Shown: piece after piece, positions 12,291-29,324 of the stretch
How positions within the stretch are numbered: the first letter of the stretch is position 1
How the letters are laid out: every line of letters starts with the position of its first letter
Source of the DNA: Comamonadaceae bacterium OTU4NAUVB1
Lineage (GTDB): Bacteria > Pseudomonadota > Gammaproteobacteria > Burkholderiales > Burkholderiaceae_C
Direction of reading: 5' to 3'
Assembly (NCBI GenBank): GCA_024372625.1
Contig: CP099605.1
Coordinates: 744,001 to 808,000, forward strand
Length of the DNA stretch: 64,000 nt
Program-made: the position numbers and the translations under genes
Notes under the pieces: generated by a model
What the model was told of the DNA's origin: nothing
The model's database searches: none
The model's input: only the letters and a program-made list of their open reading frames with translations

Positions 12291-12378
12291 GGAGAGTTGG
12301 GTGAGTGGTTTAAACCAGCAGTCTTGAAAACTGCCGACGGGCGACCGTCCGTGAGTTCGAATCTCACACTCTCCGCCA
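12291..12378 (+). tRNA. tRNA-Ser (anticodon TGA)
   Basis: The acceptor stem pairs GGAGAGT (12291-12297) with ACTCTCC (12368-12374), then discriminator G and encoded CCA. The anticodon arm GCAGT-CTTGAAA-ACTGC gives anticodon TGA. A long variable arm (CGACGGGCGACCGTCCG region) and the T arm GTGAGTTCGAATCTCAC fit a class II serine tRNA. A TAGAAT at 12252-12257 may be its -10 box. The 3' end is the integration target of the adjacent element, which leaves the tRNA intact. Confidence 0.95.
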
Positions 12379-12380
12379 TC
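12365..12380. repeat. attL core (16-bp direct repeat at the tRNA-Ser 3' end)
   Basis: CACACTCTCCGCCATC covers the last bases of the tRNA plus two beyond CCA. The identical 16 bases recur at 29309-29324. The integrase gene starts 130 bases to the right. Confidence 0.85.
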
Positions 12381-12394
12381 ACACCAAATGAAGA

Positions 12395-12415
12395 GGCCCT
12401 GCAAAGGGCCTTTTT
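12395..12415 (+). terminator. Rho-independent terminator after tRNA-Ser, inside the element
   Basis: GGCCCT-GCAA-AGGGCC followed by TTTTT. It lies between the att core and the integrase, so it would stop transcription entering the element from the tRNA promoter. Confidence 0.8.
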
Positions 12416-12510
12416 CATTGGGGCACTGCTTAGAAATGACTCCGGTTTAGTCCGATATCATCCAGCCAGATCGGTTTCGTTTTGGCAGCAAGGATGATGG
12501 AAATGCGGAC

Positions 12511-13737
12511 ATGCCCAAAAAAGCAGCAGAGCTAGGCGCGCTCCAGGTTAGTCGTCTGGTGAAGCCCGGTGCTCACGCAGTCGGTGGTGTCGCTGGCCTG
12601 CAGCTCAAGATCAATGAGGAGGGCGCCCGGTCCTGGGTGCTCCGTGCCATGGTGGCTGGCAAGCGCCGAGACATGGGCCTGGGCGGCTTTCCCGACGTGC
12701 CGCTGGCAGAGGCCCGGCAGCGAGCACGGGACGCACGGGCGAAGATCCACGCCGGCACCGATCCCATCCAGGCCCGCAGAGAGGCCCGCAGCGCCGTCGC
12801 GGCGGCCACCGCCAAGGCCAGGACCTTCGACCAGTGCGCTACCGCGTACATCAAGGCCAAGTCCGGCGAGTGGGCCAACGCCAAGCACCACACCCAGTGG
12901 GAGACCACGATCGAGACCTATGCGTCGCCCGTCATCGGCAGCCTCCTGGTGGCGGACGTCGACGTATCCAACGTGCTGAAGGTGCTCGAACCGATTTGGA
13001 CGACAAAAACGGAAACGGCATCCCGACTGCGTGGACGTATCGAGTCGATCCTCGACTGGGCGACGGCGCGCGGCTACCGCACCGGCGAGAACCCGGCGCG
13101 CTGGCGCGGCCACCTCGATCAACTGCTGGCCAGGCCAAAGAAGATCGCGAAGGTGAAGCATCACAAGGCCGTGCCCGTCGACGGCGTGGCCGCGTTCGTG
13201 GCAGACCTGCGCCAGGTGGACGGTTCTAGCGCTCGCGCGCTCGAGCTGGCTGTGCTAACCGCTGCACGCTCAGGCGAGGTCCGCGGCGCGCGATGGTCAG
13301 AAATCGACCTTGAGGCCCGGGTATGGACCGTGCCGGCCGAGCGGATGAAAGCGAAGAAGGAACACCGTGTTCCCCTGTCGACCCAGGCCCTCGCCATGCT
13401 GGAGCAGCTACCGCGCTTCGAGGCATCGGACCTGCTGTTCCCCGGCCGGAAGGGCCCGCTATCCGACATGTCGCTGACGGCTGTCATGCGGCGCTTGAAG
13501 TTGACCGCCGTGCCGCATGGGTTCCGATCGACCTTTCGCGACTGGGCCGCCGAACGCACGAACTACCCGCGCGACTTGGCCGAGATGGCGCTGGCCCACG
13601 CGATCGAGAACGCCGTAGAGGCGGCCTACCGGCGCGGCGACATGTTGGCCAAGCGCGCGGCCATGATGCAGGCCTGGGCCGACTTTCTCGACCAGACGCA
13701 CACGGGCGGGAACGTGCTGGAGTTCAAAACAGCTTAG
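12511..13737 (+). CDS. Tyrosine integrase (DUF4102/P4-type)
   Basis: The 408-residue recombinase has the N-terminal arm-binding DUF4102 domain (LQLKINEEGARSWVLR, MGLGGFPDVPLAEAR), a core-binding SAM-like domain (about 110-210) and the catalytic domain with R253 (AARSGEVRGARW), H336-x-x-R339 (HGFRSTFRDW), H363 and nucleophile Y373 (EAAYRRGD). All catalytic residues are present, so it should be active. It would recombine the tRNA-Ser 3' end with the element's site. The gene sits next to attL and ends 14 bases inside the convergent HTH gene. This integrase type is used by P4-like satellites, genomic islands and prophages. Confidence 0.96.
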   Translation: MPKKAAELGALQVSRLVKPGAHAVGGVAGLQLKINEEGARSWVLRAMVAGKRRDMGLGGFPDVPLAEARQRARDARAKIHAGTDPIQARREARSAVAAATAKARTFDQCATAYIKAKSGEWANAKHHTQWETTIETYASPVIGSLLVADVDVSNVLKVLEPIWTTKTETASRLRGRIESILDWATARGYRTGENPARWRGHLDQLLARPKKIAKVKHHKAVPVDGVAAFVADLRQVDGSSARALELAVLTAARSGEVRGARWSEIDLEARVWTVPAERMKAKKEHRVPLSTQALAMLEQLPRFEASDLLFPGRKGPLSDMSLTAVMRRLKLTAVPHGFRSTFRDWAAERTNYPRDLAEMALAHAIENAVEAAYRRGDMLAKRAAMMQAWADFLDQTHTGGNVLEFKTA

Positions 13738-14200
13738 GCGTTTCGGTTCTCTTGGCAGACAGCTCCTCAACACACCGCACCAGGTCTGCCACCCGCCAGC
13801 GCGTGAGCCCGCCAATCTTCACCGGCTGCGGTAGGTTCTTCTTGCTGACCTCGCGCCAGAAGGTTGAGATGCCCATCGACAGTAGCCGCGCTGCTTCCTT
13901 CGCAGGTACGAGCTTGAGGGCTGGCTCGGAATCGATGGGTGTCGGTGCCGGTGCTACCGCGGGCGCTTTCTGAGGACTTGGCGCGAGGGGTTTCGCGTGT
14001 GGCGATAGGCGACGCTGGCTCGCGTCGAACCTTGCCTTCTGCGCCAGAAAAATTAACAGGTCGGCTCGGACGAAAAGCCATGAACTCCCAATCTGCAGTC
14101 CTGGGATCTCACCTGCCTGGGCAAGCTCCTCGATCTGGCCAGACGTACAGCGGAGGAGGGCAGCGCACTGCGTCGAATCGATGATTTCGGATACTGGCAT
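13724..14200 (-). CDS. Double helix-turn-helix regulator (excisionase/AlpA-like)
   Basis: The 158-residue protein contains two separate winged-helix/MerR-like DNA-binding units. One is N-terminal (STQCAALLRCTSGQIEELAQ then SSWLFVRADLLIFL) and one C-terminal (VPAKEAARLLSMGISTFWRE then LTRWRVADLVRCVEEL). They are joined by a Pro/Ala-rich linker of about 40 residues. Each unit matches the excisionase/AlpA pattern: helix-turn-helix followed by a hairpin ending in W-R-A/V-D-L. The gene is on the opposite strand to the rest of the early region and convergent with the integrase, overlapping it by 14 bases. It may act as excisionase or as the repressor of the plus-strand genes; that is inference. Confidence 0.7.
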   Translation of the reverse strand: MPVSEIIDSTQCAALLRCTSGQIEELAQAGEIPGLQIGSSWLFVRADLLIFLAQKARFDASQRRLSPHAKPLAPSPQKAPAVAPAPTPIDSEPALKLVPAKEAARLLSMGISTFWREVSKKNLPQPVKIGGLTRWRVADLVRCVEELSAKRTETPKLF

Positions 14201-14592: not shown

Positions 14593-14937
14593 ATGGCTAC
14601 TCGCAAGTCTACCCAAGCCGCGCCCGCGGCGTCCGTGAACGACTTCCTAAAAGTCGCTTCTTCCGCTGATCCTGCAATCGAGAGCCTGCTCTCAGAGATC
14701 GCGGCCTTAGCTCATCGCACCGATCATCGTCTGCGGCTTTTGCCCTGCGGTGACGGTGAGATTGACGCGATCGAGGTCGACACGCTTCGCGATGTCGTGA
14801 TGCGCATGGGCTGGATGGCCGATGTCGCGCTGCAGCGCCTCGACAGCATCAACACCATGCGCAATGGCCATGCCGAGCAGTGGTTGTTGCCACCGTCCTG
14901 CATCACTGCTCTCCTGGGCGACGAGGTGGGAGCATGA
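14593..14937 (+). CDS. Hypothetical protein of the element early region
   Basis: A 114-residue protein of unknown function. It is mainly helical by composition (DFLKVASSADPAIESLLSEI; RDVVMRMGWMADVALQRLDS) with no signal peptide or membrane segment. Its stop overlaps the start of the next gene by 4 bases (ATGA), which supports real translation and coupling. Confidence 0.55.
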   Translation: MATRKSTQAAPAASVNDFLKVASSADPAIESLLSEIAALAHRTDHRLRLLPCGDGEIDAIEVDTLRDVVMRMGWMADVALQRLDSINTMRNGHAEQWLLPPSCITALLGDEVGA

Positions 14938-15317
14938 GCGCCGCTGTCCTGGCCCTGCCTACATCCGCTCCTGGGCCTGTGGCACAGCGGCAGCGCCGTG
15001 GGCCCCTACCGAAAGCTGTGCGCAGCCTCAGTGCATACCGGCTGGATCGGAAGAAAGGGCACGAGCAAGTGCATGCCGACAAAGTAGCGAAGGTGAAAGA
15101 AGTCTTCTTCCAGGCTCTCGAGCGTGTACTGCAGGGCGAAGTGACAGGGGTCGCCATCCTCGAGACGCGTGAAGGCGCCAACGAGGGCGACACTTTTTCT
15201 GCAGCTGGAGAGTTCGTTGACGATCCGGCCCACTTTCGACGCTGCGCTTACAAGGTCATAGACCTCAGCTTCGGTTGGCACATTGAAGAAAACAATCGAC
15301 TTCAGTCGACCGAATGA
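14934..15317 (+). CDS. Hypothetical protein of the element early region
   Basis: A 127-residue protein with a Pro- and basic-rich N-terminus (PTSAPGPVAQRQRRGPLPKA) and a predicted helical centre (VAKVKEVFFQALERVLQGEV), followed by an acidic, possibly alpha/beta C-terminus. The start at 14934 overlaps the preceding stop. No family is recognised. It is followed by a 239-base gap without a gene, then an AlpA-like regulator. Confidence 0.55.
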   Translation: MSAAVLALPTSAPGPVAQRQRRGPLPKAVRSLSAYRLDRKKGHEQVHADKVAKVKEVFFQALERVLQGEVTGVAILETREGANEGDTFSAAGEFVDDPAHFRRCAYKVIDLSFGWHIEENNRLQSTE

Positions 15318-15773: not shown

Positions 15774-16010
15774 ATGGAAACGATTCACGGCGATACGCCG
15801 GGCGCGAGCACGCCTGCTGATCTGAAGCAGCTTGCCACCCTGCGCGCTCGCTTTGCCCTGCTGGGTCACGAGCTGCGCGTGGTGACCAAGAGCGACAGCA
15901 TGTTCTACGAGGTGCACCGCTGGGGACAAAGTCGCCACTGCAGCACCATCCACGACTTGGAAGGCTTCCTCGCGCAGCTCACAGGAGCGAAGCATGGCCT
16001 TCGTTCGTGA
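15774..16010 (+). CDS. Small hypothetical protein
   Basis: A 78-residue protein with a helix followed by strands: LKQLATLRARFALLGHELRV, then YEVHRWGQSRHCSTIHDLEG. It overlaps the primase-like gene by 17 bases and follows the AlpA-like gene by 13, so it appears to be part of the same transcription unit. No function can be assigned. Confidence 0.55.
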   Translation: METIHGDTPGASTPADLKQLATLRARFALLGHELRVVTKSDSMFYEVHRWGQSRHCSTIHDLEGFLAQLTGAKHGLRS

Positions 16011-16452
16011 CCGCCTGCCGGAGGCTATTCCCTACTTCGAGAGCGAAGGTCTGCGCCTCACAGGCCCTGGCAAGTGGAAGACCGCGAAATGCGATTTCCA
16101 CGGCGGCAGCGACTCGATGCGCATTAACACGGAGACGGGTGCATTCGTCTGCATGAGCGGCTGCGGCGCCAAAGGCGGCGACGTCGTGGCGTACCGCATG
16201 CTCATCGCCGGCGTCGACTTCGTGCAGGCCTGCAAGGACCTCGACGCCTGGCAGGAGAACGACCGGCCATCCCGCATGAAGCCGCTGCCGTTCTCGGCGC
16301 GGGAAGCACTGTCCGTGCTGCGCTTCGAAGCGCTGCTGGCTGCTGTCGCCGCTGGCAACATCGCGAAGGGCGTTGTCCTGACCGATGACGACCGACAGCG
16401 ACTCCTGCAGGCCGCCTCACGCATCGAATACATCGCGGAGGAAGTCGGATGA
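15994..16452 (+). CDS. CHC2 zinc-finger primase-like protein (zinc-binding part only)
   Basis: The 152-residue protein has a DnaG/P4-type zinc ribbon: C33-x2-H36 (CDFHGG), the strand SMRINTETGAFVC, then C53-x3-C57 (CMSGCGAKGGDVVAY). The CX3C spacing is one residue longer than usual. No TOPRIM or archaeal-type catalytic domain follows, only a helical tail, so it may prime together with another protein or only recognise DNA. CAGGAG lies 6 bases before the ATG. Its stop overlaps the start of the RepA-like helicase, which points to a joint replication role. Confidence 0.75.
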   Translation: MAFVRDRLPEAIPYFESEGLRLTGPGKWKTAKCDFHGGSDSMRINTETGAFVCMSGCGAKGGDVVAYRMLIAGVDFVQACKDLDAWQENDRPSRMKPLPFSAREALSVLRFEALLAAVAAGNIAKGVVLTDDDRQRLLQAASRIEYIAEEVG

Positions 16453-17537
16453 CGCCGCGCGCCAAGACGTACGAGGAGACAGCGGCGGTCTTCGATCACC
16501 CACTGCGATCCGCGCCTGGCCCTGCGCTTCCAATGCGGCGCCTGATCTACCAGCTGGCCCAGGATCTGCCGGACGAGCCGGAGTTCGAGGACGAACTGGT
16601 CGAGGGCCTGATCGGCCGCCAAGCCATGTCCGTGATCTACGGCGACAGCAACAGCGGGAAGACCTTCCTGGCGATCGACTTGGCCGCATCCGTGTGTCTG
16701 GGCACGCCGTGGATGGGCCGGAACGTCGAGCCGTCGCTGGTGGTGTACCTGGCCACCGAAGCGCCGCGCTCAGTGCGCGAGCGCTTGAAGGCCTACCACC
16801 GGCACCACGAATGCAAGGTGCCGATGCTGGCCATCGTCGCGTCACCAGTGAACCTGTTCGACACTGACGGCGACACCAAGGCGCTCATCGCGCTCGTGAA
16901 GGAACTGGAGACCGAACACGGCATGACCTGTGGCTTGGTCATCGGCGACACCCTTGCGCGCCTGAGCGCTGGCGCGAACGAGAACAGCGGGGAGGACATG
17001 GGCGTGGTCGTGAAGCACGTCGACCGCATCCGCGCGGAGACGGGCGCGCACTTCATGCTCATCCACCACTCGGGCAAGGACGCGGCGCGCGGCATGCGCG
17101 GCTGGAGCGGCCTGCGTGCGGCGACCGACACCGAGATCGAGGTGACCTCCGACGAGCTCGCTGGCACGCGCACCGCCGAGATCACGAAGCAGCGTGACAT
17201 GGGAGGGAAGGGCGATCGCATCGGCTTCCGCCTGGAGACCATCGACATGGGCCCGGGGAAATGGGGGAAGCAGCGCACGTCGTGCGTCGTCGAACCCACC
17301 ATTGCCGCCGACAAGCCGGCGCGCGGCAAGCGGCCCAGCGAGGTCGCGGGAGCCATTACCGAGTTCCTGACGGTGCGCGGCAGTGGATGCCTTCGTGGAG
17401 CTTTGGTGAAGCATTTCGACGGCAGGTACCCGAGCACGTCGGTCTATCGCGAGATCAACAAGATGCTCGACGCCGGCCTCTTGATCGAGTCCGTTGGCAT
17501 CGTCGCGCTACCAGGCCGCCCGGGGGTGAATCCTTGA
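16449..17537 (+). CDS. RepA-like AAA/RecA-fold replicative helicase
   Basis: A 362-residue ATPase. Walker A is GDSNSGKT (K71); Walker B is in GLVIGDTLARL; a sensor-like segment follows (HFMLIHHSGKDAARGMRGWS). This is the layout of RSF1010 RepA/DnaB-like hexameric helicases found in phages and plasmids. Residues from about 285 form a C-terminal winged-helix segment (SEVAGAITEFLTVRGSGCLR, then TSVYREINKMLDAGLL) that could bind the iterons immediately downstream. It is translationally coupled to the primase-like gene. The two together suggest that the element drives its own replication after excision. Confidence 0.85.
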   Translation: MTPRAKTYEETAAVFDHPLRSAPGPALPMRRLIYQLAQDLPDEPEFEDELVEGLIGRQAMSVIYGDSNSGKTFLAIDLAASVCLGTPWMGRNVEPSLVVYLATEAPRSVRERLKAYHRHHECKVPMLAIVASPVNLFDTDGDTKALIALVKELETEHGMTCGLVIGDTLARLSAGANENSGEDMGVVVKHVDRIRAETGAHFMLIHHSGKDAARGMRGWSGLRAATDTEIEVTSDELAGTRTAEITKQRDMGGKGDRIGFRLETIDMGPGKWGKQRTSCVVEPTIAADKPARGKRPSEVAGAITEFLTVRGSGCLRGALVKHFDGRYPSTSVYREINKMLDAGLLIESVGIVALPGRPGVNP

Positions 17538-17865
17538 TACACCTCTGTTACGAAAGTCTCCAACTGCTGAAAAAGTGGGCAGCAGAAAACTGCCCTCAGA
17601 TTAAGCAGGCGAGGGAGGCGCTTTTCTCCTCTTGTCTCCAACTACGTGCAGTGTGCAAAGCCAGCATCCATGCGGGTTTCCAGGGGAGTCTCCAACTTGT
17701 CTCCTATGTCTCCAATGAGCAATCGGAGACAAGGTTTCAGGTGTCTCCAACTGTCTCCTCTCCCTATAGGGGAGAGACAGAGGAGACAAACCCGGCCAGG
17801 AGACTGGCGCCTGCAAGCAGGACGCATCAGGGGGCGACGACCATGAACTGCGCCAGGAGAGAGCC
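17538..17865. repeat. Iteron-like repeat cluster, candidate replication origin
   Basis: GTCTCCAACT occurs four times in direct orientation (17556, 17634, 17688, 17743; spacings 78, 54 and 55). Shorter direct GTCTCC copies are at 17699, 17708 and 17753, and inverted GGAGAC copies at 17725 and 17782. GTCTCCTCT at 17753-17761 and AGAGGAGAC at 17779-17787 form a perfect inverted repeat around a further near-palindrome centred on TATA. Two more GGAGAC units lie at 17931 and 17938 inside the next gene. No convincing gene lies in this 328-bp stretch. The position directly after a RepA-like helicase suggests an origin; repression or packaging sites are alternatives. Confidence 0.65.
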
Positions 17866-18126
17866 ATGAGTAGCTTCGATGACGCGTTCGTGGTGATGGC
17901 TTACATGGCGTTCCTGAACGAACCCAGTGCGGAGACCGGAGACAACTTGGCCGCTGCGCTCGCAGACCAACACCCGGCGCTCCTATCGTTCGAAGAGCTA
18001 TCCCGCACCTTCCGCAGGCATGTCTCGGAGCTGCAGCACAGCCGCCTGCTTGATGCATCAGGACAGGCCGGCGTGAACCTGCTCAACGAACTGATCGCGG
18101 ATTGCAAGGGGAAGGGCATCTCATGA
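17866..18126 (+). CDS. Small hypothetical protein
   Basis: An 86-residue, helical, mildly acidic protein (DDAFVVMAYMAFLNEPSAET; EELSRTFRRHVSELQHSRLL). GAGAG precedes the ATG. Its stop overlaps the next start by 4 bases. No family is recognised. It is the first gene after the iteron cluster. Confidence 0.55.
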   Translation: MSSFDDAFVVMAYMAFLNEPSAETGDNLAAALADQHPALLSFEELSRTFRRHVSELQHSRLLDASGQAGVNLLNELIADCKGKGIS

Positions 18127-18533
18127 GCGCCCTGATTCAGCAAGCCAAGACAGTCCGAGCAACCGTGCTTTTCGTGCTGGTTGCGCCGGACGTGTACCGC
18201 CTGGGCCTAGACGGCAACACAGCGATCTATGCGCCGCGATCCAACGCGAGGAAGACAGCATCGATGCTCCATGCCTTGGCTGAATCACGAGGGCAGTGGG
18301 TGAATGCATCCGGCCTGCTTGAAGGTGCCGAGCGCACCCGTCCTGACAAATGCGTGCGACAAGCCTTGTTGCGTGGCGTCGACCAGATCGGCAACGTCTC
18401 AACGAAGCTGGCCGCCGCGCTGAGCACGATCGAAACCGAAATGCGCGGAGACGAGGTCTGGGTCCGTGTGCTCGACCGCGAGACCGGCTTTTTCATCGAA
18501 ACCGTGCCAATGCCGTTCCACCTCCATTCCTGA
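18123..18533 (+). CDS. Hypothetical protein of the element
   Basis: A 136-residue protein beginning MSALIQQAKTVRATVLFVLV, with a central helical segment (TASMLHALAESRGQWVNASG) that resembles a small winged-helix domain, and a C-terminal strand region (DEVWVRVLDRETGFFIETVP). The start overlaps the previous stop, so the two are coupled. Function unknown. Confidence 0.55.
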   Translation: MSALIQQAKTVRATVLFVLVAPDVYRLGLDGNTAIYAPRSNARKTASMLHALAESRGQWVNASGLLEGAERTRPDKCVRQALLRGVDQIGNVSTKLAAALSTIETEMRGDEVWVRVLDRETGFFIETVPMPFHLHS

Positions 18534-18571: not shown

Positions 18572-19150
18572 ATGACCTCAGCCATTCCCTCTTCGCTCCG
18601 TCACGGCATCAACCGGTGCCGCTCTTTGCTTGCCACTAACCAAGCGGAGATAGAAGCCTGTGTGTCTGACATGACACGCAAGGATGTCGATCTGACGGAC
18701 GAGCTCGAGCGCCTGACGGCTGTCGGCAATGCTCTGCGCCAACGCCTCGGCACCTACGAGCATGCGGCGATGCTCGCCTCCGAGCAAAGCGCAGACGACC
18801 AAGCCGAGCAACGCTTGGCACGCGATGCTCATTTGGCTCGGCTTGCCTGTGAGGCAGCCGAGTACCGCAGCGTGCTCGCTGCTGCTGTCACGAGTCAACT
18901 CGAACAGCTCAAGGTTTCCATCGAGGCCTTTTATAAAGCCGACGAAGAGGCGCACGCCGCCTTTGTTCGAGCTGCCTCCCCCAACGTAGTCGACGGGCGC
19001 TGCCGCTCCCAAGTCTTCGAGGCCATCACGCGCGCCTTGGCTGAGACCGCTCACGTCCAGCCCGATCCGGAGGCGTGCAAGTGGAAAGCCGGACGTGTCC
19101 GTGCCTTCATGGCGGAAAAGCTGCGCGACCCCTCGCAATTCGATGTCTGA
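18572..19150 (+). CDS. Coiled-coil hypothetical protein
   Basis: A 192-residue protein dominated by long helices with heptad-like spacing (about residues 20-115; DELERLTAVGNALRQRLGTY, then SQLEQLKVSIEAFYKADEEA). No signal peptide, membrane segment or catalytic motif is visible. It sits between the early genes and the virion-type genes. It could be a scaffold-type or regulatory protein, but nothing in the sequence decides this. Confidence 0.55.
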   Translation: MTSAIPSSLRHGINRCRSLLATNQAEIEACVSDMTRKDVDLTDELERLTAVGNALRQRLGTYEHAAMLASEQSADDQAEQRLARDAHLARLACEAAEYRSVLAAAVTSQLEQLKVSIEAFYKADEEAHAAFVRAASPNVVDGRCRSQVFEAITRALAETAHVQPDPEACKWKAGRVRAFMAEKLRDPSQFDV

Positions 19151-19167: not shown

Positions 19168-19500
19168 ATGTGCGTTGAATCTTTGATCGCTCTGGGCCTC
19201 TCGGCCTCTACCGCATCCACCGTGGGCACCGTCGCCTCGATCGCCGGCACCGCTGCTGCTGGCGCTGCTGCAACCTCCGCCCTGGCGAAATCGCCGAAGG
19301 TCGACGCGCCCAAGCCGTTGACCCAGGCCGACAAGCCCGCGCAGGCTGCTCAGGCGGTGGACCGCAATGCACTCCTCAAGCGCAATGCCACGGCCGCCCA
19401 GGGCGCGCTCGCGGGCAATGGCAGCACGCTCTTGAGCGGAGCGAGCGGCATCAATCCGGCCTCCCTCAACCTTGGCAGCAACTCGCTGCTCGGGAGCTGA
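19168..19500 (+). CDS. Small Ala/Gly-rich virion-type protein (podovirus gp14-like)
   Basis: The 110-residue protein starts MCVESLIALGLSASTASTVG, followed by an Ala/Gly-rich helix that could sit in or against a membrane. It ends with STLLSGASGINPAS...NSLLGS. I recall the pattern S-T-I/L-L-T/S-G-x-x-G ending K/N-x-L-L-G from small virion or internal proteins of podoviruses; the assignment is from memory, not a search. It is the first of the phage-structural-type genes of the element and lies 1 base before the scaffold-like gene. Confidence 0.5.
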   Translation: MCVESLIALGLSASTASTVGTVASIAGTAAAGAAATSALAKSPKVDAPKPLTQADKPAQAAQAVDRNALLKRNATAAQGALAGNGSTLLSGASGINPASLNLGSNSLLGS

Positions 19501-20171: not shown

Positions 20172-20582
20172 ATGCCTGCTTGGAAGCCAGGCCAGTCCGG
20201 CAACCCGTCAGGCCGAGCGAGCAAGGGCACGATCGAGGCCCGTGTCGCCCTGCGCCAGAACATTCTGGATCGCATGCCTGCCGTCGTAGAAAAACTGCTT
20301 GCCCTGGCTCAAGAGGGTGACGTGCAGGCCGCGCGCACGCTCATGGAGCGCGTGCTGCCATCGGTGAAGCCTGAGAGCCTGCCGGTCCTGCTGGACATGG
20401 CTGGCGCGACCACTGCGACCGAGCAATCCGCCCTGATCGTCAAGGCGATCGTGTGCGGACAGATCGCACCCGACGTTGGCTCTGACCTGCTTGCCGGCAT
20501 CGCCAACGCCGCACGAATCGCTGACTTCGATCAAGTCGCAGCGGACGTGCGTCAACTTCGTGAGGAGCTGAGCAAGAGATGA
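20172..20582 (+). CDS. DUF5681-type phage protein (small terminase-like)
   Basis: The 136-residue protein opens with the DUF5681 signature WKPGQSGNPSGRASKGTIEA, found on small proteins encoded beside phage terminases, and continues with a helical body (RMPAVVEKLLALAQEGDVQA; ARTLMERVLPSVKP). A role in DNA recognition for packaging is plausible but not demonstrated for the family. No large terminase gene follows. Its stop overlaps the next start by 4 bases. Confidence 0.6.
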   Translation: MPAWKPGQSGNPSGRASKGTIEARVALRQNILDRMPAVVEKLLALAQEGDVQAARTLMERVLPSVKPESLPVLLDMAGATTATEQSALIVKAIVCGQIAPDVGSDLLAGIANAARIADFDQVAADVRQLREELSKR

Positions 20583-21603: not shown

Positions 21604-24600
21604 ATGGCCGACCAATTCGATGCGGATGCCGCAGTCCGAAGCTTCATGAATGGCGCTGCACCAAACCCCGAGGTTGCACTGCGCAGCAGCCTCTACGACG
21701 CAGTAACCAAGAACCCTGACCAGGCCGCCGAGTGGCGCCGCACCGCCGCGACGATCGGCGTGCCGGTGGACACCGCCCAGGCGCTGCCCGACTGGTCCAA
21801 GCAGCAGATAGCACTTCAGCAGATCAACCCGACAGCCCTGGCTCGAATGAATCCGGCTACTACGGGCTTCCTGACTGACCCGCAGAACGCCGCTGTTGCG
21901 CATGATGACGTCGGGGTCCTGTCGCAGTTAGAGGGCGGCATCGTCGGCGCGGCCAAGTACCTCACTGGCCTGGGCGATGCGAAGCGCAGCCTGCCGAAGG
22001 ACCTGCTGGCCGGCGCGATCTTCAAGGCGAACCAAGGCATGGCCGGCGTCCTGCAAGCCGCCGTCGAGATCCCGGCGAAGGCTCTCGATCCGCTGGTGGG
22101 CAGCCTGCTCCCGAGCAACCCGCTCACGCCCGTGGCCGAGTACCTGGCCTGGGCCGGCGCCACCTCCGCCGCGCGTGCCAAGGAACTCAGCCCGGCGACC
22201 GACAGCTTGGCCGAGAACGCGTTCTCGAGCGGCGTGCAGTCGATGGGCTTCAATCTGTCGATGCTGCCGCTGCTGATCGCGACGCGCGGTGCGGGCGCCG
22301 GACCAGTGCTCACCATGATGTCGGCGAACCAGGGCGGCCAGTCCTACCAAGAGGCGCGCACGCAGGGCCTGAGCCCGTTCCAGGCGCTGCCGTATGCCGC
22401 CTCCCAGGCCGCCATCGAGTACGCGACGGAGAAGCTGCCGCTGGGCGTGCTGCTGAAGGACCTGAAGGCTGGCACTGGCCTCATGAAGACGCTGGCGCAC
22501 AACGTCGCGACCGAGATCCCTGGCGAGCAGGTCGCGACCGTGCTGCAGGACCTCAACTCGTGGGCCGTCCTGCCCGAGAACCGCGCCAAGCCCTTCAGCG
22601 CTTACCTCGCGGAGCGGCCCAGCGCTGCCGCCTCGACGCTCATCGCCACTGTGGTGGGTTCAGGCGGTCAGGTCGGCGTGATGAAGGCGGTTCAGGCGGC
22701 CGCAGACCGCGTGTCCGGCGTCGATCGGCAAGCCCAGGAGGCCCAGCAGAGCGCCCAGCAGGTCGAGCAGATGGCCAAGGTGGCCAGCACCAGCAAATTG
22801 CGCGCACGTGACCCGGAGAGCTTCCGCCTGTTCGTCGACCAAGTGACCGAGGCCAATGCCCAGGCGCCGAAAGAGTTCTACATCGACGCCCAGACGCTCG
22901 CCAACACTCTGAACCAGTCAGGCATCGGCCAAGCGGAGATCGAGCGCCTGGCGCCCGGTGTGGCCGCTCAGATGAAGGCTGAGAACCAGCTGCCCGGGGC
23001 CGACATCCGCATCCCCATCGCTGAGCTGCTGGCTGCCGATCCGGCCATCACCGCATCGTTGATCGATCACTTGCGCGTGACGCCCGAGGACATGAGCCGG
23101 GCCGAGAGCCAGCAGTTCACCCTCAACCAGAGCCAGGAGCTGCAGAGCGCCGTCGAGGGCGAGATGGCGCGCGCCGTGACCGAGGCCGACATCGCTGGCC
23201 GCGACGCCAACGTGCGGCTCTACTTCGAGCAGCAGCTGGCCGCGACGAACCGTTTCACCGCCCAGGCCCGCCTTTCCTATGCGTCGATGTTTGAGGCCTA
23301 CTACCGCACCCAGGCCGAACGCTCCGGCATGACGCCCGAGGTCTTCCTGGACCGGTACCGCCTGGAGTTCACCAACGCTGCTGCGCCTGGTGGCCGCTCC
23401 GTCAGCCAAGGACAGCAGCGCGGCCCGCGCGCAACGCTCAGCTTCGGCGAGGACATCACTGCGGCGGCCAGCGTCATCGGCCTGGGGAAGAACGCGGATT
23501 TGAGCAGCGTCCTCCATGAGGGGGGACATTTCTTCCTGGAGGTGCAGAGCGACCTTGCAGGCCGCATCCAGGGCCGCATCAACGCCGGCGAGGACGTCAG
23601 CGCCAGCGAGCGCCAGATCGCTGTGGACATGGGCACGCTGCTCAAGTGGATGGGCGTGACCGGCACGCCGACGCTCGACGCGCTCACCGACTGGCAATCA
23701 ACGCCGCTCGAGCAGAAGCGCAGCCAGCACGAGAAGTTCGCGCGCGGTGTCGAGACCTACTTCATGGAGGGCCAGGCGCCCAGCGTCGAGCTGCAATCTG
23801 TCTTCGATCGCTTCCGCTCCTGGCTGGTGTCGATCTACAAGAAGCTGTCCAACCTGAAGGCCGATCTGTCGCCAGACGTGCGCGGTGTGCTCGATCGGAT
23901 GCTGGCGTCGGACGACGCAATCCGGGCCGCAGAGGACGCGCGCAACCTGGGACCGCTCTACACCAGCGCGGAACAGGCCGGCATGACACCTGCGGACTTC
24001 CAGGCCTACCAGGCGCTCGGCAAGCAGGCTACGGCCGACGCAGAGGCCGAGCTGTCGATCCGCATGATCCGTGACATGCGGCTGCTGTCGAAGGCCAAAG
24101 ACAAGGCCCTGCGCGCTGCCCAGAAGGAGGCAGACGCCCTGCGTGCCGAGATCGAGCAGCAGGTGCGCCGCGAGGTGCTCGCTGAGCCGATCTACCGCGC
24201 GCACCAGTTCCTCACCGGCAAGGCGCAGGACAGCATCCAGCCCGGAAAGATCGCGCCGGAGGACGTCGACACCACGCTGGGCAACGGCAAGCTGCGCACG
24301 GCCCTGGTGAAGGAGATCGCTCCGGAGGCCTTTGCCGAACTGCGCCGCATGCGCATGACCAGCGAGAAGGAGGGCATGCACCCCGACCTGGTGGCCGACA
24401 TGTTCGGTTTCAGTTCCGGTGACCAGCTGCTGCAGGGCCTCGCGATGGCGGGCCCGCCGGCCGACGCCATCCAGGCGCTCACCGATCAACGCATGCTGGA
24501 GACGCACGGCGACATCGCCAGCCCAGAGGCGCTCATGCGCGCGGCCGAGCGCGCCATCGCCAACGAGGCCCGCGCCCGCATGGTGGCGACCGAACTGCGC

Positions 24601-27213
24601 GCCGCGGCCAGGGCAGGCAACGGCCGTGAGGGCAGCGTCGACGTGATGAGCCGCGCCGCCCGCGACTTTGCCGAGCGTGTCATCGCCGGCCAGCGCATCA
24701 AGGACGTGCGGCCCAAGCAGTACATGGCCGCCGCCGGCCGCAGCGCCAAGCTGGCGATGCAGAGCCTGGGCAACACCGCCGAGCTCGCCATGCACAAGCG
24801 CAATGAGCTGGTGAACATCCACGCCGCGCGCGCCGCGTCGAATGCCCAGACCGAGATCGAGGCCGCACACAAGTACTTCCAGCGCGTGGTAAAGGCCGAC
24901 ATCCCGAGCGACTACATGGCCCAGATCGACGCGCTGCTCGAGCGCTTCGACATGAGCCCGAGGACGTCGAACAAAGCGATCGAGCGACGCAAGAGCCTGC
25001 GCAAGTGGGTCGACGAGCAGCGTGAGCTTGGCCGAGACCCGGACATCAGCGAGGAGCTGCTGGACGAGGCGCGCCGCGTGTCGGTCAAGGATCTGACGGT
25101 GGACGAGTTCCGTGGCCTGGTCGAGACCGTGAAGCAGATCGAGCACCTGGGCCGCACGAAGGAGCGCATGCTGACGGCCAAGGACGAGCGCGACTTCGCC
25201 GAGGTCAGCGCCGAGCTGATCGGCAGCGTGACCTTCAATGCCCAGGGCCGCAAGGCAGACACGCGCACGCCGAAGACCGAGCTGGGTCGCAAGCTGCAGG
25301 GCCTGCGCAACTTCGGTGCCTCGCACATCAAGGTGGCGACCCTGGCGCGCGTGTTCGACGGCGGCAAGGACGGCGGCGCCTGGTGGGAGCGCGTGATCCG
25401 TCCGGTCAATGAGGCCGGCAACATGGAGACGCGCATGAAGGCTGAGCTGACCGAAAAGCTCACCGGCATCATGGCGCCTCTGTTCGAGTCCGGCGCTTCG
25501 ATGACCGGCAATGACCAGTTCTTCCCGACCATCGGTCGCAGCCTGAACCGGCAGGAGCGCATGGCCATCGCCATGAACTGGGGGAACGCCTCGAACCGAC
25601 AGCGCCTGCTCGGTGGCGAGAACTGGACCGAGCAGCAGGTGCAGCCCGTGCTCGACAGCGTGACAGCCGAGGAGTGGCACGTGGTGCAGAACGTCTGGAG
25701 CCTGTTCGAGTCGCTGCGCCCGCTCATCGCCGCCAAGGAACTGCGCGTTTTCGGGAAGGAGCCCAACTGGATCGAGCCAACGCCGTTCGTGACGTCGACC
25801 GGTGTCACGATGAGCGGCGGCTACTTCCCAGTGACCTACGACAGCTCGGCCAGCATCAGAGCCGAGGAGCATGCCAACGCCGAGGAGGCGCGCCAGCAGA
25901 TGAAGGGCGCCTACAACGCCGCCACGACGCGCCGCAGCTTCACCAAGACCCGCGCCGAGGAGGTCTACAACCGGCCGCTCCTGCTGTCGTTCCAAGGCAT
26001 GTACGGCAGCCTGAACGCGGTGGTGCGCGACTTGGCCTATCACGAGGTGCTGATCGACCTGAACCGCCTGCTGCGCTCCGATGCGATTGACGGTGCGGTC
26101 CGCTCCACGTTCGGGCCGGCGGTCATCAAGCAGTTCAGCGACTGGCGCAACGACATCGCCGAGGGCGACGTGCCGGCGCAGCGGCAGATCGACAAGCTGG
26201 CAGGCGCTGTCCGGCGCAACGTCAGCTTCGTGGGCCTGGGCTACAACGTGGTGAGCGCGGCAACCCAGCTCACTGGTGTGGCCCAGTCCATTGCCCGGGT
26301 CGGCCCGCAGTGGTTCGGCATGGGCCTGAAGGCCTACTTGGGCGCGCCGATCGTCAAGACGCGCGAGGCCAGCGCCAAGTCCGAGTTCATGGCCAGCCGC
26401 ACGCGCACGCAGTTCCGCGAGCTGGCCGAGCTGAACAACAAGGTGAACGGCCAGAGCGCGATCCGGGAAGCCATCGTGGCGAACGGCTATGTGCTGATGT
26501 CGCGCGTGCAGCAGATGGTCGACGTGCCGACCTGGCACGGCGCCTACGAGAAGGCGATCGCTGACGGCAGGAACGAGGCGACAGCCGTGCAGCTGGCCGA
26601 CCAGTCGGTGATCGATGCCCAGGGCGGCGGCGGCATCAAGGACCTGAGCGCGATCGAGCGCGGCGGCCAGACACAGAAGCTCTTCACGTCGTTCTACTCG
26701 TTCATGAACACCGCGCTGAACATCCTGGTGGCGCGCGGCATGACGCACCGGTCAGCAGCGCATAGCGTGGTCGACTTCACCCTCATCGTGATGGTGCCCA
26801 GCATGATCACGTCGCTTCTGAAGGACGCTCTGATCCCAGGCGACGGCAGCGACGACGACAAGGCGGTCTGGCGCAAGCTGGTTGCCGCCGGCGCGGACAG
26901 CCTGTTCGGCCTAGTGGTGGGCGGTCGGGAGCTGTCGGAGGCCGCGAAGAAGCTGCTGGGCGTCTCCGACTTCGCCCGCGGCTACAGCGGCCCGGCTGGC
27001 CTGCGCATCGTCGGCGACCTCACCAACCTGAGCACGCAGGTGCAGCAGGGAGACGCTGACCTCGCACTGCTCAAGGCCACGATCAACGTCGCCGGTGACC
27101 TGGTGGGCCTGCCTGCTGCACAGATCAATCGCACCCTGACCGGTGGCGCTGCCCTGGCGCAGGGTGACACCCAGAACCCGGCTGCACTGGCCTTCGGTTA
27201 CCAGAAACCCTGA
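21604..27213 (+). CDS. Giant phage polyvalent protein with HEGGH metallopeptidase motif (probable ejected virion protein)
   Basis: The 1869-residue protein occupies a third of the element. Visible parts are an N-terminal helical region with Gly/Ala-rich, possibly membrane-inserting segments (SMLPLLIATRGAGAGPVLTM; STLIATVVGSGGQVGVMKAV), a zinc metallopeptidase motif H638-E-G-G-H642 (SSVLHEGGHFFLEVQ) with a possible third ligand in GVETYFMEG, a long coiled-coil stretch (about 790-1220, KDKALRAAQKEADALRAEIE), and a C-terminal helical region with another hydrophobic stretch (DFTLIVMVPSMITSLL). This is the design of large polyvalent proteins of podoviruses, packaged in the virion and injected with DNA; several carry enzymatic domains against host defences. 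Function here is inferred. Confidence 0.75.
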   Translation: MADQFDADAAVRSFMNGAAPNPEVALRSSLYDAVTKNPDQAAEWRRTAATIGVPVDTAQALPDWSKQQIALQQINPTALARMNPATTGFLTDPQNAAVAHDDVGVLSQLEGGIVGAAKYLTGLGDAKRSLPKDLLAGAIFKANQGMAGVLQAAVEIPAKALDPLVGSLLPSNPLTPVAEYLAWAGATSAARAKELSPATDSLAENAFSSGVQSMGFNLSMLPLLIATRGAGAGPVLTMMSANQGGQSYQEARTQGLSPFQALPYAASQAAIEYATEKLPLGVLLKDLKAGTGLMKTLAHNVATEIPGEQVATVLQDLNSWAVLPENRAKPFSAYLAERPSAAASTLIATVVGSGGQVGVMKAVQAAADRVSGVDRQAQEAQQSAQQVEQMAKVASTSKLRARDPESFRLFVDQVTEANAQAPKEFYIDAQTLANTLNQSGIGQAEIERLAPGVAAQMKAENQLPGADIRIPIAELLAADPAITASLIDHLRVTPEDMSRAESQQFTLNQSQELQSAVEGEMARAVTEADIAGRDANVRLYFEQQLAATNRFTAQARLSYASMFEAYYRTQAERSGMTPEVFLDRYRLEFTNAAAPGGRSVSQGQQRGPRATLSFGEDITAAASVIGLGKNADLSSVLHEGGHFFLEVQSDLAGRIQGRINAGEDVSASERQIAVDMGTLLKWMGVTGTPTLDALTDWQSTPLEQKRSQHEKFARGVETYFMEGQAPSVELQSVFDRFRSWLVSIYKKLSNLKADLSPDVRGVLDRMLASDDAIRAAEDARNLGPLYTSAEQAGMTPADFQAYQALGKQATADAEAELSIRMIRDMRLLSKAKDKALRAAQKEADALRAEIEQQVRREVLAEPIYRAHQFLTGKAQDSIQPGKIAPEDVDTTLGNGKLRTALVKEIAPEAFAELRRMRMTSEKEGMHPDLVADMFGFSSGDQLLQGLAMAGPPADAIQALTDQRMLETHGDIASPEALMRAAERAIANEARARMVATELRAAARAGNGREGSVDVMSRAARDFAERVIAGQRIKDVRPKQYMAAAGRSAKLAMQSLGNTAELAMHKRNELVNIHAARAASNAQTEIEAAHKYFQRVVKADIPSDYMAQIDALLERFDMSPRTSNKAIERRKSLRKWVDEQRELGRDPDISEELLDEARRVSVKDLTVDEFRGLVETVKQIEHLGRTKERMLTAKDERDFAEVSAELIGSVTFNAQGRKADTRTPKTELGRKLQGLRNFGASHIKVATLARVFDGGKDGGAWWERVIRPVNEAGNMETRMKAELTEKLTGIMAPLFESGASMTGNDQFFPTIGRSLNRQERMAIAMNWGNASNRQRLLGGENWTEQQVQPVLDSVTAEEWHVVQNVWSLFESLRPLIAAKELRVFGKEPNWIEPTPFVTSTGVTMSGGYFPVTYDSSASIRAEEHANAEEARQQMKGAYNAATTRRSFTKTRAEEVYNRPLLLSFQGMYGSLNAVVRDLAYHEVLIDLNRLLRSDAIDGAVRSTFGPAVIKQFSDWRNDIAEGDVPAQRQIDKLAGAVRRNVSFVGLGYNVVSAATQLTGVAQSIARVGPQWFGMGLKAYLGAPIVKTREASAKSEFMASRTRTQFRELAELNNKVNGQSAIREAIVANGYVLMSRVQQMVDVPTWHGAYEKAIADGRNEATAVQLADQSVIDAQGGGGIKDLSAIERGGQTQKLFTSFYSFMNTALNILVARGMTHRSAAHSVVDFTLIVMVPSMITSLLKDALIPGDGSDDDKAVWRKLVAAGADSLFGLVVGGRELSEAAKKLLGVSDFARGYSGPAGLRIVGDLTNLSTQVQQGDADLALLKATINVAGDLVGLPAAQINRTLTGGAALAQGDTQNPAALAFGYQKP

Positions 27214-27226
27214 CAGGAGAACCCGC

Positions 27227-27772
27227 ATGATCATCAACACCAACGAGCTTTTCAGCTCCGTCCAATCCCTGCCGGCGCTTGGCGATGCCGTGTCCCAGCC
27301 CGTCGAGAATTTGTCGATGGGCAACCTGCTCGATGCTGAGCGGCCCTTCCTGCACATCCGCACCGCCGGCGTGGCGCCGCGCTCGGAAGGCCTGTCGGTG
27401 CTGGAGGTGGGCCTGCTGCACTCCGATGACGGCCAGCGCTTCGCGTGGGCAATCTCGCCCATCCCTGACATGGAGATCCGGACGTCGACGCCTTGGGCCT
27501 TCACGCCGATGCGCCTGCCAGGTGGCCTCAAGCGCTTTTTGATGCTGCGCTACCGGGTGACCGGCGATCGCCTCATCGCGGGTGCCCTGACGGCGTTCCT
27601 TTCCGCCGATGCGGTGCCGCCTTCGCCAAAGGCACAGCCTGCACAACGCGAGCGGCGCCAGAACGTGACCGCCCAGCACGAGTACTACCCGTCAGGTTTC
27701 AGCTTCCCGCACTACTACAACCAGCCAGGGAAGTACGAGGAACAGGCGGCAGGAGGCTCGCAAAAGGCCTAG
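27227..27772 (+). CDS. Bbp16-like capsid cement protein
   Basis: The 181-residue protein begins MIINTNELFSSVQSLPALGD and continues with beta-rich segments (LSVLEVGLLHSDDGQRFAWA; GLKRFLMLRYRVTGDRLIAG; ALTAFLSADA). The start (M-I-x-x-x-x-LFS-x-x-Q) and strand pattern match, from memory, the Bbp16 family, the jelly-roll cement protein that decorates the capsid of Bordetella phage BPP-1. The C-terminal 45 residues are a Tyr/Gln/Pro-rich tail (HEYYPSGFSFPHYYNQPGKY) beyond the fold. GGAG precedes the ATG by 8 bases. In BPP-1-like phages this gene adjoins the major capsid gene; no capsid gene is present here. Confidence 0.6.
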   Translation: MIINTNELFSSVQSLPALGDAVSQPVENLSMGNLLDAERPFLHIRTAGVAPRSEGLSVLEVGLLHSDDGQRFAWAISPIPDMEIRTSTPWAFTPMRLPGGLKRFLMLRYRVTGDRLIAGALTAFLSADAVPPSPKAQPAQRERRQNVTAQHEYYPSGFSFPHYYNQPGKYEEQAAGGSQKA

Positions 27773-27795
27773 ACGGAAGAACTGGCTGCAAGCAT

Positions 27796-28002
27796 TCACG
27801 CAGGCTTGCGGATCACCAGATTGATGCCAGCTTTCTGCAGCGTCGACAGCTTCCAGCCGCGGGTGCGCAGACTGAAGTCAACGTCGGGCTTAGGCAGCTT
27901 GCCCTGCCTGATCCAGCGGCGCACGGTCTCGTCGCTGACGCCACCGAAGTAGGCACGGAGGTCGCGGCGCCAAATCATGATGTCGACCTCATCCGTCCTC
28001 AT
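27796..28002 (-). CDS. Small excisionase/AlpA-like DNA-binding protein
   Basis: A 68-residue protein with a MerR/excisionase-type helix-turn-helix: RRDLRAYFGGVSDETVRRWI then QGKLPKPDVDFSLRTRGWKL. It is on the opposite strand to the virion-type genes and divergent from the Abi gene. The AT-rich space between them holds two GGTTAAGCA repeats that could be its binding sites. It is likely to regulate the defence gene or excision. Confidence 0.65.
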   Translation of the reverse strand: MRTDEVDIMIWRRDLRAYFGGVSDETVRRWIRQGKLPKPDVDFSLRTRGWKLSTLQKAGINLVIRKPA

Positions 28003-28282
28003 GCCTTCAGTCCTTGTAGGTAGGGCACAGGTTAAGCACTTCGTTTGACGTCATGAGAGAACAGCTTACGAAGTAACCTTTTCGGTTAAGCAAAAAGGGT
28101 TTGTCAGCACGTAAAAATGCAAACTTTTCTGCTGCTTTAATACTAAAGGTTATTAACGTTTCGTTGACTTTGCCTACTTCCCGAAGCTAAGATCGACAGC
28201 AATATGCCCCCCACCTCTGGCCCCGGCGCAAGCGCGGTGTGTCATGTGGGGGGTTTCTCTTTGTGGGGCCCGTCGAGTCTTG
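28003..28282. promoter_or_regulatory. Divergent AT-rich regulatory region with Abi promoter and leader hairpin
   Basis: This stretch is clearly lower in GC than its surroundings. GGTTAAGCA occurs at 28030-28038 and 28084-28092 (54 bp apart). A sigma-70-like promoter, TTGACT (28164-28169) and TAAGAT (28188-28193) with an 18-base spacer, points to the Abi gene. Just after the expected start, CCCCCCAC (28207-28214) pairs with GTGGGGGG (28246-28253), followed by TTTCTCTTT, a terminator-like leader hairpin ahead of the coding start at 28283. Confidence 0.6.
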
Positions 28283-29224
28283 ATGGTAGTGCTGAAGCCT
28301 CATCTATCCCGTCCGAACCAAGTTGATCGCCTTGCCGAGCGTGGTCTAGAAATCAGAGACAGGGCTCAAGCCCTGGCTGCACTTCAAAGATTTGGTTACT
28401 ACAGGCTATCAGGATACTTTTATCCATTGAGGAAAACTAAGCCTCGTGGTGAGCAAGGACGCCTTGATGAGTTTGTGGATGGAGCAACCTTCGATCTCAT
28501 CGTTGCCTTGGCAGAGTTCGACAAGGCGCTCCGTGTTCATGTCATGCATGCGGTTGAAACGATTGAAGTTGCGTTTCGTGTGGCCATTGCATACAAACTG
28601 GGCCCGCTAGCACCAGATGCTCACTTGCAGTCTGCGTTTCTGGATGGTCGATTCGTCGAGAAACCTTCATACGACCGACCTTCGAAGCATGACGAGTGGA
28701 TCGTCCGCTATCAGAAGCTATGCACGCAGTCCAAGGAGGACTTCGTCAAGCATCACAAGGACAGGTATGGCGGCCAGATGCCTATCTGGGTGGCGATCGA
28801 GTTGTGGGACTTCGGCCTACTTTCTCGGTTTTACGAAGGGATGAAACCTCGAGATCAAGGCAGCATCGCTAGCGCTTTCGGCCCTGTCGACGGCAGGATG
28901 ATTGCCTCATGGCTTCGAAACATCTCCTTCGTGCGAAACGTGGTCGCCCATCACGGTCGGCTTTGGAACCGCACCAATCCCTCAACCTTAGTGCTGCCCA
29001 AGGGCGATCGAGTGCCCTATCTAAGCGGGCTGGGCGATGGTCCACGAGGCAAGCTCTACGAGACGCTTGCATGCATGCGCTTCCTTTTGCGAACCATCCA
29101 GCCACATTCGGAGTGGCATACCTACTTGAAGCGGCAGATCAATACGTTTCCAGCGTCTGACCTTGTTTCCTTGGAAGCTGCAGGCTTCCCGACCGACTGG
29201 CAAACAAGACCTCTATGGAACTAG
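28283..29224 (+). CDS. Abi_2 (AbiD/AbiF-like) abortive infection protein, HEPN type
   Basis: The 313-residue protein matches the Abi_2 family: an N-terminal HTH-like segment (RLAERGLEIRDRAQALAALQ), the signature RFGYYRLSGYFYPLR, the helical body ALRVHVMHAVETIEVAFRVA, and the RNase-type HEPN motif R-x4-H at R218-H223 (RNVVAHHGRLWNR). Such proteins cut or block RNA on phage infection and stop phage growth. Base composition is lower in GC than the neighbours, suggesting separate acquisition. The ATG at 28283 was chosen; an ATG at 28244 lies inside the leader hairpin. The gene is the last before the distal att site, the usual cargo position in satellites and prophages. Confidence 0.85.
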   Translation: MVVLKPHLSRPNQVDRLAERGLEIRDRAQALAALQRFGYYRLSGYFYPLRKTKPRGEQGRLDEFVDGATFDLIVALAEFDKALRVHVMHAVETIEVAFRVAIAYKLGPLAPDAHLQSAFLDGRFVEKPSYDRPSKHDEWIVRYQKLCTQSKEDFVKHHKDRYGGQMPIWVAIELWDFGLLSRFYEGMKPRDQGSIASAFGPVDGRMIASWLRNISFVRNVVAHHGRLWNRTNPSTLVLPKGDRVPYLSGLGDGPRGKLYETLACMRFLLRTIQPHSEWHTYLKRQINTFPASDLVSLEAAGFPTDWQTRPLWN

Positions 29225-29308
29225 GATCAGATTCGTTTTGATGGCCTGGTTGATGGAAAAAACCATGAAGAGACGATTTAACCCCTCTATTAGTTGCGCT
29301 TAGGCGGA

Positions 29309-29324
29309 CACACTCTCCGCCATC
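29309..29324. repeat. attR core (16-bp direct repeat of the tRNA-Ser 3' end)
   Basis: Identical to 12365-12380 and placed 84 bases after the Abi stop. It marks the right end of the element. Sequence from here to 29524 has no convincing gene and belongs to the host leader of the citrate transporter gene. Confidence 0.85.

Follow-up and report, generated by a model that had tools for sequence, protein, structure and literature searches.

A 64,000-nt window of the genome of Comamonadaceae bacterium OTU4NAUVB1 (contig CP099605.1, positions 744,001 to 808,000 of the forward strand; positions below are those of the window) contains an element of about 17 kb (12365-29324, 16.96 kb between its outer ends) that is integrated in a tRNA-Ser gene of this 4.66-Mb Variovorax genome. 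We propose, with a probability of roughly three in four, that it is an integrative satellite of podoviruses of the BPP-1/epsilon15 type, which mimics the helper's scaffold, redirects packaging and supplies its own ejection protein. That this intact-looking element is a satellite is well supported, and capsid remodelling with redirected packaging is what we infer as the best account of its function. The first-pass annotation, made from the letters of the window alone, had already suggested a capsid-remodelling satellite at this site. Relatives that lack capsid genes, and a full prophage that is not collinear with the element, now support that interpretation in silico.

Central to this reading is a virion-type operon (18572-27772) that is 99.6% coding with gaps of at most 17 bp, followed by an abortive-infection gene:

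18572..19150, +: helical 'coil' protein, 192 aa, recognised by position (like-sized, like-placed proteins occur in six sister elements)
19168..19500, +: Bbp22-like virion protein, 110 aa (51% to a V. guangxiensis prophage)
19502..20167, +: scaffold of Bbp18/epsilon15 type, C-terminally short
20172..20582, +: DUF5681 protein, putative small terminase (Pfam 1e-10; genomic context)
20579..20779, +: small protein, 66 aa
20776..21123, +: 115-aa protein
21125..21601, +: GNAT acetyltransferase of the phage virion region (phrog_1249 3e-25; 45% to the V. guangxiensis prophage)
21604..27213, +: giant Bbp10-type (gp16-like) ejection protein, 1869 aa, with LPD22 and an HExxH motif
27227..27772, +: cement protein, Bbp16-like, 181 aa, with a C-terminal extension
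28244..29224, +: AbiD/Abi_2 abortive-infection protein (Pfam Abi_2 5e-50; PADLOC AbiD 5e-66)

The DUF5681, GNAT, giant ejected-type and distal Abi genes named in the first-pass annotation are all borne out by matches to Pfam, PHROG or PADLOC. The giant matches LPD22/phrog_9880 with 1423 bits and BPP-1 Bbp10 with 48% identity over 98%, both of its halves contributing (42% and 51%), and its HExxH motif is invariant. It also matches a gene that, in Pseudomonas phage UFJF_PfDIW6, comes after the internal virion proteins and a structural lysozyme. In the available text of a review (PMC8954989), the gp16-like proteins of epsilon15 and P22 are assigned by this same synteny, and gp16 is described as a component of the channel through which DNA enters the cell. 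In one batch of the sister elements introduced below, Pfam T7_gp14 (internal virion protein) matches three of 73 proteins, presumably the bbp12-like ones, which in L060 and L040 lie two genes before the giant. By family and gene place, then, the giant is assigned as an ejection protein. Against solved structures, its profile matched only Sec62 (E 7e-06), and its sequence alone matched none.

The scaffold-like and cement-like assignments are weak from single sequences (phrog_458 at 0.001 and Bbp16 at 0.03, below the Pfam cut-off), and are backed by iterated profiles: one grown from BPP-1 Bbp16 reaches the window cement at 2e-24, and one grown from the window scaffold takes in BPP-1 Bbp18 at 7e-57. 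A cement profile built without BPP-1, from the window, three sister elements and two Mesorhizobium prophages, matches two solved phage proteins named as decoration or cementing protein, neither of which is matched by the window cement alone. The AlphaFold model of the cement is poor (pLDDT 52, all-beta) and a fold search with it was uninformative; the scaffold profile returned nothing credible among solved structures. Together with the Bbp22-like protein, the scaffold matches BPP-1 directly at conserved ends (3e-4 and, for the Bbp22-like protein, 0.001). The order Bbp22, Bbp18, Bbp10 of BPP-1 is kept, with the cement moved behind the giant. Among the coil proteins of the window and the sister elements, only those of L089 and L093 show significant similarity to one another.

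The genes that would make this a phage are missing. As the first-pass annotation had stated, no major capsid protein (MCP), portal or large terminase (TerL) and no tail-tube gene was found in the element with Pfam, PHROG and BPP-1-type profiles; of the other head and tail genes of BPP-1, none besides GNAT was found. Profiles of the BPP-1-type MCP, portal, Bbp13, 14, 19 and 20, and TerL gave no match at E<=1 in the open reading frames (ORFs) of all 13 elements (the window's and 12 sisters) and of a related Variovorax island, G178. Likewise, 52 ORFs that follow DUF5681 relatives (mostly TerL), used as queries together with Bbp25, found nothing at 1e-3 in those ORFs, and TerL was found in three of three control phages. 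A Pfam scan at 1e-4 of 152 called proteins of the 12 sister elements, which left out giants and very short proteins, gave 22 families per batch, with no capsid, portal or large-terminase family among them.

The element does carry genes for integration, regulation and replication:

12291..12378, +: tRNA-Ser (tga), the integration target (ARAGORN)
12365..12380: attL, copy of the 16-bp core
12511..13737, +: tyrosine integrase, 408 aa (Pfam Phage_integrase/Arm-DNA-bind_3)
13724..14200, -: AlpA-like excisionase/regulator with two HTH_17 stretches (HTH_17/phrog_66)
14593..14937, +: 114-aa protein, no Pfam family
14934..15317, +: 127-aa protein, overlapping the preceding ORF by 4
15774..16010, +: small protein, 78 aa, also found beside RepA in other Variovorax islands
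15994..16452, +: primase zinc-finger protein (CHC2; Pfam PF01807 3e-06)
16449..17537, +: RepA-like AAA_25 helicase, 362 aa (Pfam PF13481 1e-37; phrog_2850/906)
17556..17804: iteron cluster GTCTCCAA(C) in both orientations, putative replication origin (GGAGAC/GTCTCC words)
17866..18126, +: 86-aa protein
18123..18533, +: 136-aa protein
29309..29324: attR, copy of the 16-bp core

The matched ends at a tRNA that had been proposed are confirmed at 12365-12380 and 29309-29324. This direct repeat takes in the last 14 nt of tRNA-Ser(tga) and the two bases after them, and occurs on the + strand of the whole window in these two copies only. When the downstream 24.5 kb was shuffled 200 times (a dinucleotide walk, length unchecked), no shuffle reached a 16-bp match and one reached 15. 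One gene precedes the tRNA-Ser in all eight genomes of a Variovorax set of our own choosing; to the right of it, the chromosome varies among the Variovorax genomes examined, and a clean empty site was not found among them. Pfam and PHROG matches also uphold the intact integrase, the AlpA-like regulator and the primase-like and RepA-like genes; the integrase (Phage_integrase at 3e-16) is 52% identical to that of sister element L076. The iteron cluster stands as well: of the 25 GGAGAC/GTCTCC words in the element, ten fall within 329 bp, starting between 17556 and 17799, between RepA and the next gene region.

The first-pass annotation had called for relatives that have a similar gene set and no capsid genes, and these do exist. 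A single giant sequence found no relatives as a query for loci, whereas an alignment-based query succeeded: a profile of six giants had 97 relatives in one-per-species genomes and at least 563 in viral contigs, 80 of each being kept. The 80 genome loci comprise 12 capsid-less integrative elements, 48 phages or prophages (L085 is a phage; these calls were mostly made by profile matches to head or tail genes, rather than read individually), four remnants (L042, L053, L104 and L111), one undecided locus (L099) and 15 with less than 6 kb upstream. The 12 sister elements, four of them with exact attachment (att) ends, are as follows (MAG, metagenome-assembled genome):

L048: Paraburkholderia BL9I2N2; 47-bp repeat at tRNA-Arg; 15.86 kb
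L059: Proteobacteria SKS3.bin56; no convincing repeat
L076 (G002): MAG MMS_B.mb.9; 17-bp repeat at tRNA-Ser; 14.75 kb
L080: Burkholderiales SM_69_25; no convincing repeat
L089: Hyphomicrobium CS1BSMeth3; 14-bp repeat at tRNA-Ser; 17.18 kb
L093: Mesorhizobium LSHC420B00; 51-bp repeat at tRNA-Arg; 17.40 kb
L050: MAG labelled Flavobacteriaceae; no convincing repeat
L090: Lysobacter daejeonensis; no convincing repeat
L052: Burkholderiaceae PRO11
L060: Rhodocyclales; no convincing repeat
L105: Thiobacillus denitrificans RG; no convincing repeat
L040: LinL3 MAG; no convincing repeat

With the window, this gives five elements of exactly known ends, all between 14.8 and 17.4 kb, or 0.35-0.41 of the length of BPP-1 (42.49 kb). 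BPP-1 has a T=7 shell, and the small shells of P4 and of the Staphylococcus aureus pathogenicity islands (SaPIs) offer parallels; by simple arithmetic, going from a T=7 to a T=4 icosahedral shell leaves a volume ratio of about 0.43. Five of the capsid-less elements carry bbp11/bbp12-like ejection genes. The giants of L059 and L076 are 68% identical, though the replication genes of these elements differ. The remnants are unlike the satellites, consisting of the giant alone or of the giant with an integrase fragment (L053, L111).

The scaffold differs in a constant way between satellites and phages. Its family has a conserved G-x-G-N-x-P motif near the C-terminal end, and six satellite scaffolds run on for 20 (window), 17, 19, 23, 15 and 16 residues beyond it. 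The last of these is from L093, which is not a match to the hidden Markov model and was measured by the same pattern; the candidate scaffold of L052 lacks the motif and stands outside the count. At the other loci, 61 of 71 scaffold ORFs have the motif and 60 of these 61 run 36-47 residues beyond it, the single value of 179 residues being a pattern mis-hit (some phage rows are near duplicates, and the counts are not independent). The ten ORFs without the exact motif have ends that resemble those of the other phages, L160 excepted. At the level of sequence, this shows that the window scaffold keeps the conserved domain and is without some 20 C-terminal residues that are present in phage scaffolds. 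The SaPI protein CpmB imitates the phage scaffold and outcompetes or displaces it, according to the available text of PMC12409344; by analogy, a shortened scaffold homologue is an obvious candidate for a CpmB-like role.

The Mesorhizobium satellite L093 allows the histories of these genes to be compared. Among complete-looking prophages of the genus, its giant is 90% identical to that of L092 (best segment, 1394 aa) and 85% to that of L100 over the whole length, as against 62% to the giant of the Hyphomicrobium satellite L089. Its scaffold, in turn, is 44% identical to that of L089 over 223 aa (E 8e-46), and matches that of the prophage over 24 aa only (E 0.007). As judged from these identities, therefore, the ejection gene goes with the phages of its host genus, and the scaffold with the satellite line. 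The small terminase (TerS) follows neither pattern (L093 is 53% identical to L089 and 51% to the prophage, L089 63% to the prophage); in the Mesorhizobium prophage it lies two ORFs from TerL.

Packaging genes vary among the elements. A recognised TerS is present in five of the 13: Terminase_2 in L089, L093 and L105, Phage_Nu1 in L050, and an Sf6-type protein in L040, placed by the bbp26 profile. DUF5681 is found by iterated profile in the window, L076 and L080; the Pfam model at 1e-4 gave the window and one protein of the first sister batch, in which the gene call of L076 is cut at its start. In Vibrio phage 1.016.O, TerL comes immediately after a DUF5681 relative; in Salmonella phage SeSz-2 and Kosakonia Kc259, the two are separated by one gene. 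The 52 ORFs that come after such relatives in viral contigs match Terminase_6N in 35 cases and Terminase_3 in 18 (the counts overlap), and thus a TerL family in at least 35. On this genomic context we regard the DUF5681 protein as a putative small terminase.

From these parts a life cycle can be proposed. In its anatomy, the element sits in tRNA-Ser by way of a tyrosine integrase, apparently under AlpA-like control. Upon growth of a helper it would be excised and use its own primase and RepA for replication that starts at the iterons. The DUF5681 protein, as a small terminase, would direct the helper's large terminase to satellite DNA, and the short scaffold and cement, possibly with the coil protein, would make the helper's coat build a smaller shell that fits some 17 kb. 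The giant and the Bbp22-like protein would be loaded into this shell and allow the satellite DNA to be ejected into the next cell, and AbiD, judging from its family, may guard the host against other phages. An ejection protein of its own may be needed to fit the small shell, the scaffold or the DNA being packaged. On balance, we lean towards regarding all these elements as a widespread and repeatedly assembled class of satellites that replace the inside of a BPP-1/epsilon15-type helper virion. They would bring TerS, a scaffold mimic that is cut at its C-terminus and makes for a small shell, in some cases a cement, and always their own gp16-like ejection protein, leaving only coat, portal, large terminase and tail to the helper; as such, the satellite would control both the DNA that is packaged and the protein that delivers it.

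Several observations weigh against this. No helper-type MCP was found in the same genome: the MCP profile scored in none of the 13 satellite genomes (several of which are MAGs that may be incomplete) and in none of three other Variovorax genomes (G178, G196, G112), with both of two controls found. The 80 giant loci from viral contigs comprise 61 phages and 19 that are too short, with no candidate satellite. Only some of the elements have the full remodelling set, the scaffold being recognised in six and the cement in four of 13, and no TerS was recognised in five (L048, L059, L090, L052 and L060). The AlphaFold model of the DUF5681 protein (pTM 0.40) matched no solved TerS, its proposed role resting on context, and the profile grown from BPP-1 Bbp18 fails to reach the window scaffold. 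Finally, the satellite giants do not form one clade in the giant tree and are scattered among those of phages, which therefore points to repeated recruitment.

The competing reading of the first-pass annotation was a deletion derivative of a podovirus prophage: a decaying BPP-1-type prophage that lost its MCP, portal, TerL and tail genes. The same virion genes are indeed found in a BPP-1-type prophage of another Variovorax, V. guangxiensis (G119:C40:268957-296866; L009-L011, L049), which looks complete, MCP, portal and tail included, and is possibly of the helper type. It has in common with the window the Bbp22-like, GNAT, giant and cement genes (tblastn at E 1e-3 in 52 kb) and, by profile, the scaffold; its giant is 67% identical to that of the window over the first 110 residues. 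The four remnant-like loci of our search, and an 88-aa gene near the end of L093 that is 88% identical to one of the full Mesorhizobium prophage, fit such a history as well. However, in the same tblastn search four genes of the window (integrase, primase, RepA and DUF5681) had no match in the V. guangxiensis prophage, and the cement follows the giant in the window, whereas in the prophage it precedes the tail genes. Because of these differences in gene set and order, no single deletion yields the element, and neither a capsid-portal-terminase block nor its scar in an otherwise collinear genome was found. In addition, the listed genes of the window are open and its virion operon is densely coding. 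Among the giant loci, the AAA_25 RepA was found in the window and six sisters (L040, L048, L059, L090, L093 and L105), while none of the full phages has it (mostly searched in 10-kb flanks, BPP-1 as a whole). Furthermore, many independent elements share one plan, a narrow size range where ends are known, and a constant scaffold difference. We consider a decayed prophage improbable.

The element could also be an island that uses phage-type proteins for something else, such as interference with incoming BPP-1-type phages, with the scaffold as a dominant-negative poison, the giant as a polyvalent co-injected protein and AbiD as a second defence. AbiD at the end of the element agrees with this, as does the assignment of LPD22 to the large-polyvalent-protein series, and a related Variovorax island with a 74%-identical RepA is without virion genes and has some that resemble BREX genes on inspection by eye. 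Yet poisoning alone hardly explains the small terminases of the sister elements, the cement, or a full-length ejection protein that tracks the phages of the genus. Satellites inhibit their helpers too, and interference may belong to the same story; as an explanation in its own right, we find it unlikely. An assembly artefact was rejected, since the element is bounded by the tRNA repeat on each side and embedded in a contig of 3.29 Mb.

The satellite proposed here shares features with several known systems. Like phage-inducible chromosomal islands (PICIs; SaPIs, and proteobacterial ones such as EcCIMP1), it combines a tyrosine integrase and att repeats at a specific site with an AlpA-type regulator and a primase/replication module, has no MCP, portal or TerL of its own, and belongs to a group with sizes of about 15-20 kb and, in several sister elements, a TerS. 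It differs from SaPIs in its candidate for switching capsid size, which is homologous to the helper-type scaffold and shorter. It also differs from EcCIMP1 (PMC11773190) and SaPIpT1028 in having a cement and a gp16-like ejection protein, neither of which is mentioned for those two in the available text.

P4 has a tRNA integrase, an AlpA-type regulator and a primase, all of which recur here, and P4-like satellites redirect their helper to a small capsid, as this element would. Neither a Psu nor a Sid family of P4 is among the Pfam matches of the window and sister proteins. Sid is called a scaffolding protein in the text available to us of PMC10690885. P4 has few helper homologues according to the accessible part of PMC11389934, compared with at least five helper-type homologues in the window element. 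Capsid-forming PICIs and the Mulch and Flayer satellites also bring structural genes; these, however, encode MCP, portal and both terminases, as far as PMC10690885 was available, whereas the window element is without MCP, portal and TerL and brings inner and outer accessory proteins. With podoviruses of the BPP-1/epsilon15 type it has homologues of the scaffold, the cement Bbp16, Bbp22 and the giant Bbp10 in common, yet it is without capsid, portal, TerL and tail module, and its integrase and replication genes differ.

The suggestion of a satellite that brings its own cement, scaffold and ejection proteins thus holds as gene content. Searches for satellites with podovirus and ejection protein, for internal virion protein with PICI, and for Burkholderia with podovirus found no such report in open PMC, subscription journals being mostly outside its range. 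In the portions of the literature available to us, known capsid-less satellites redirect size or packaging and are not described with ejection proteins. Those that bring a capsid bring the whole head; scaffold, cement and ejection protein without a coat divide the virion differently. This raises the question whether a scaffold without its C-terminal tail determines how large a shell of the BPP-1 fold becomes. And why would a parasite need its own gp16-like protein, and how do podovirus ejection proteins match DNA or capsid? For podovirus satellites, the sign in sequence would be an orphan gp16-like gene beside integrase and primase, with no TerL, which satellite surveys may miss.

Related islands occur in other Variovorax genomes. 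In G178, beside tRNA-Ser, integrase, primase (61%) and RepA (63%, the match containing one TGA) are related to those of the window, and a 909-aa protein takes the place of the giant. Among PHROGs it scores best, by way of an SLT domain, with a lytic tail protein (1e-39), and over most of its first two thirds it also matches an 'internal virion protein with endolysin domain' (phrog_342, 1e-18). The same chassis may therefore carry the ejection protein of another podovirus. No BPP-1-type capsid gene was seen in this island, and no att repeat of at least 12 bp in the stretch searched. At the same tRNA-Ser in G109 (C45:190200-200200, L299), which belongs to the set of eight Variovorax genomes above, a stretch 71% identical in DNA to the window's integrase region is followed by an AlpA-like gene and then an 826-aa primase-like gene, forming another small island at the site. 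The island with the 74%-identical RepA (G196:C1:126900-148100, L022/L023) sits in tRNA-Arg and has AlpA and primase genes before RepA and the BREX-like genes after it; here, the window's chassis carries defence. Two further Variovorax RepA islands, in G112:C1 (L026 13201-14373) and G164:C52 (L029 1978-3132), encode a protein of about 390 aa.

Among the sister elements, the Paraburkholderia satellite L048 encodes a 695-aa protein (7580-9667) with a Bbp9-type N-terminus, and for this reason may bring its own adsorption protein. In L059 (8673-9053) and L080 (9611-9829), as in several satellites, small coiled-coil or uncharacterised proteins lie between scaffold and giant, that of L059 matching only coiled-coil models, weakly. 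The giants of L111, L104 and L053 are orphan genes without phage neighbours, one of them between ordinary chromosomal genes, and may be ejection genes that were domesticated or persist as relics. Giants of the Bbp10 type are found, too, in Bartonella queenslandensis and in a contig of a Rickettsia endosymbiont (L066, L082).

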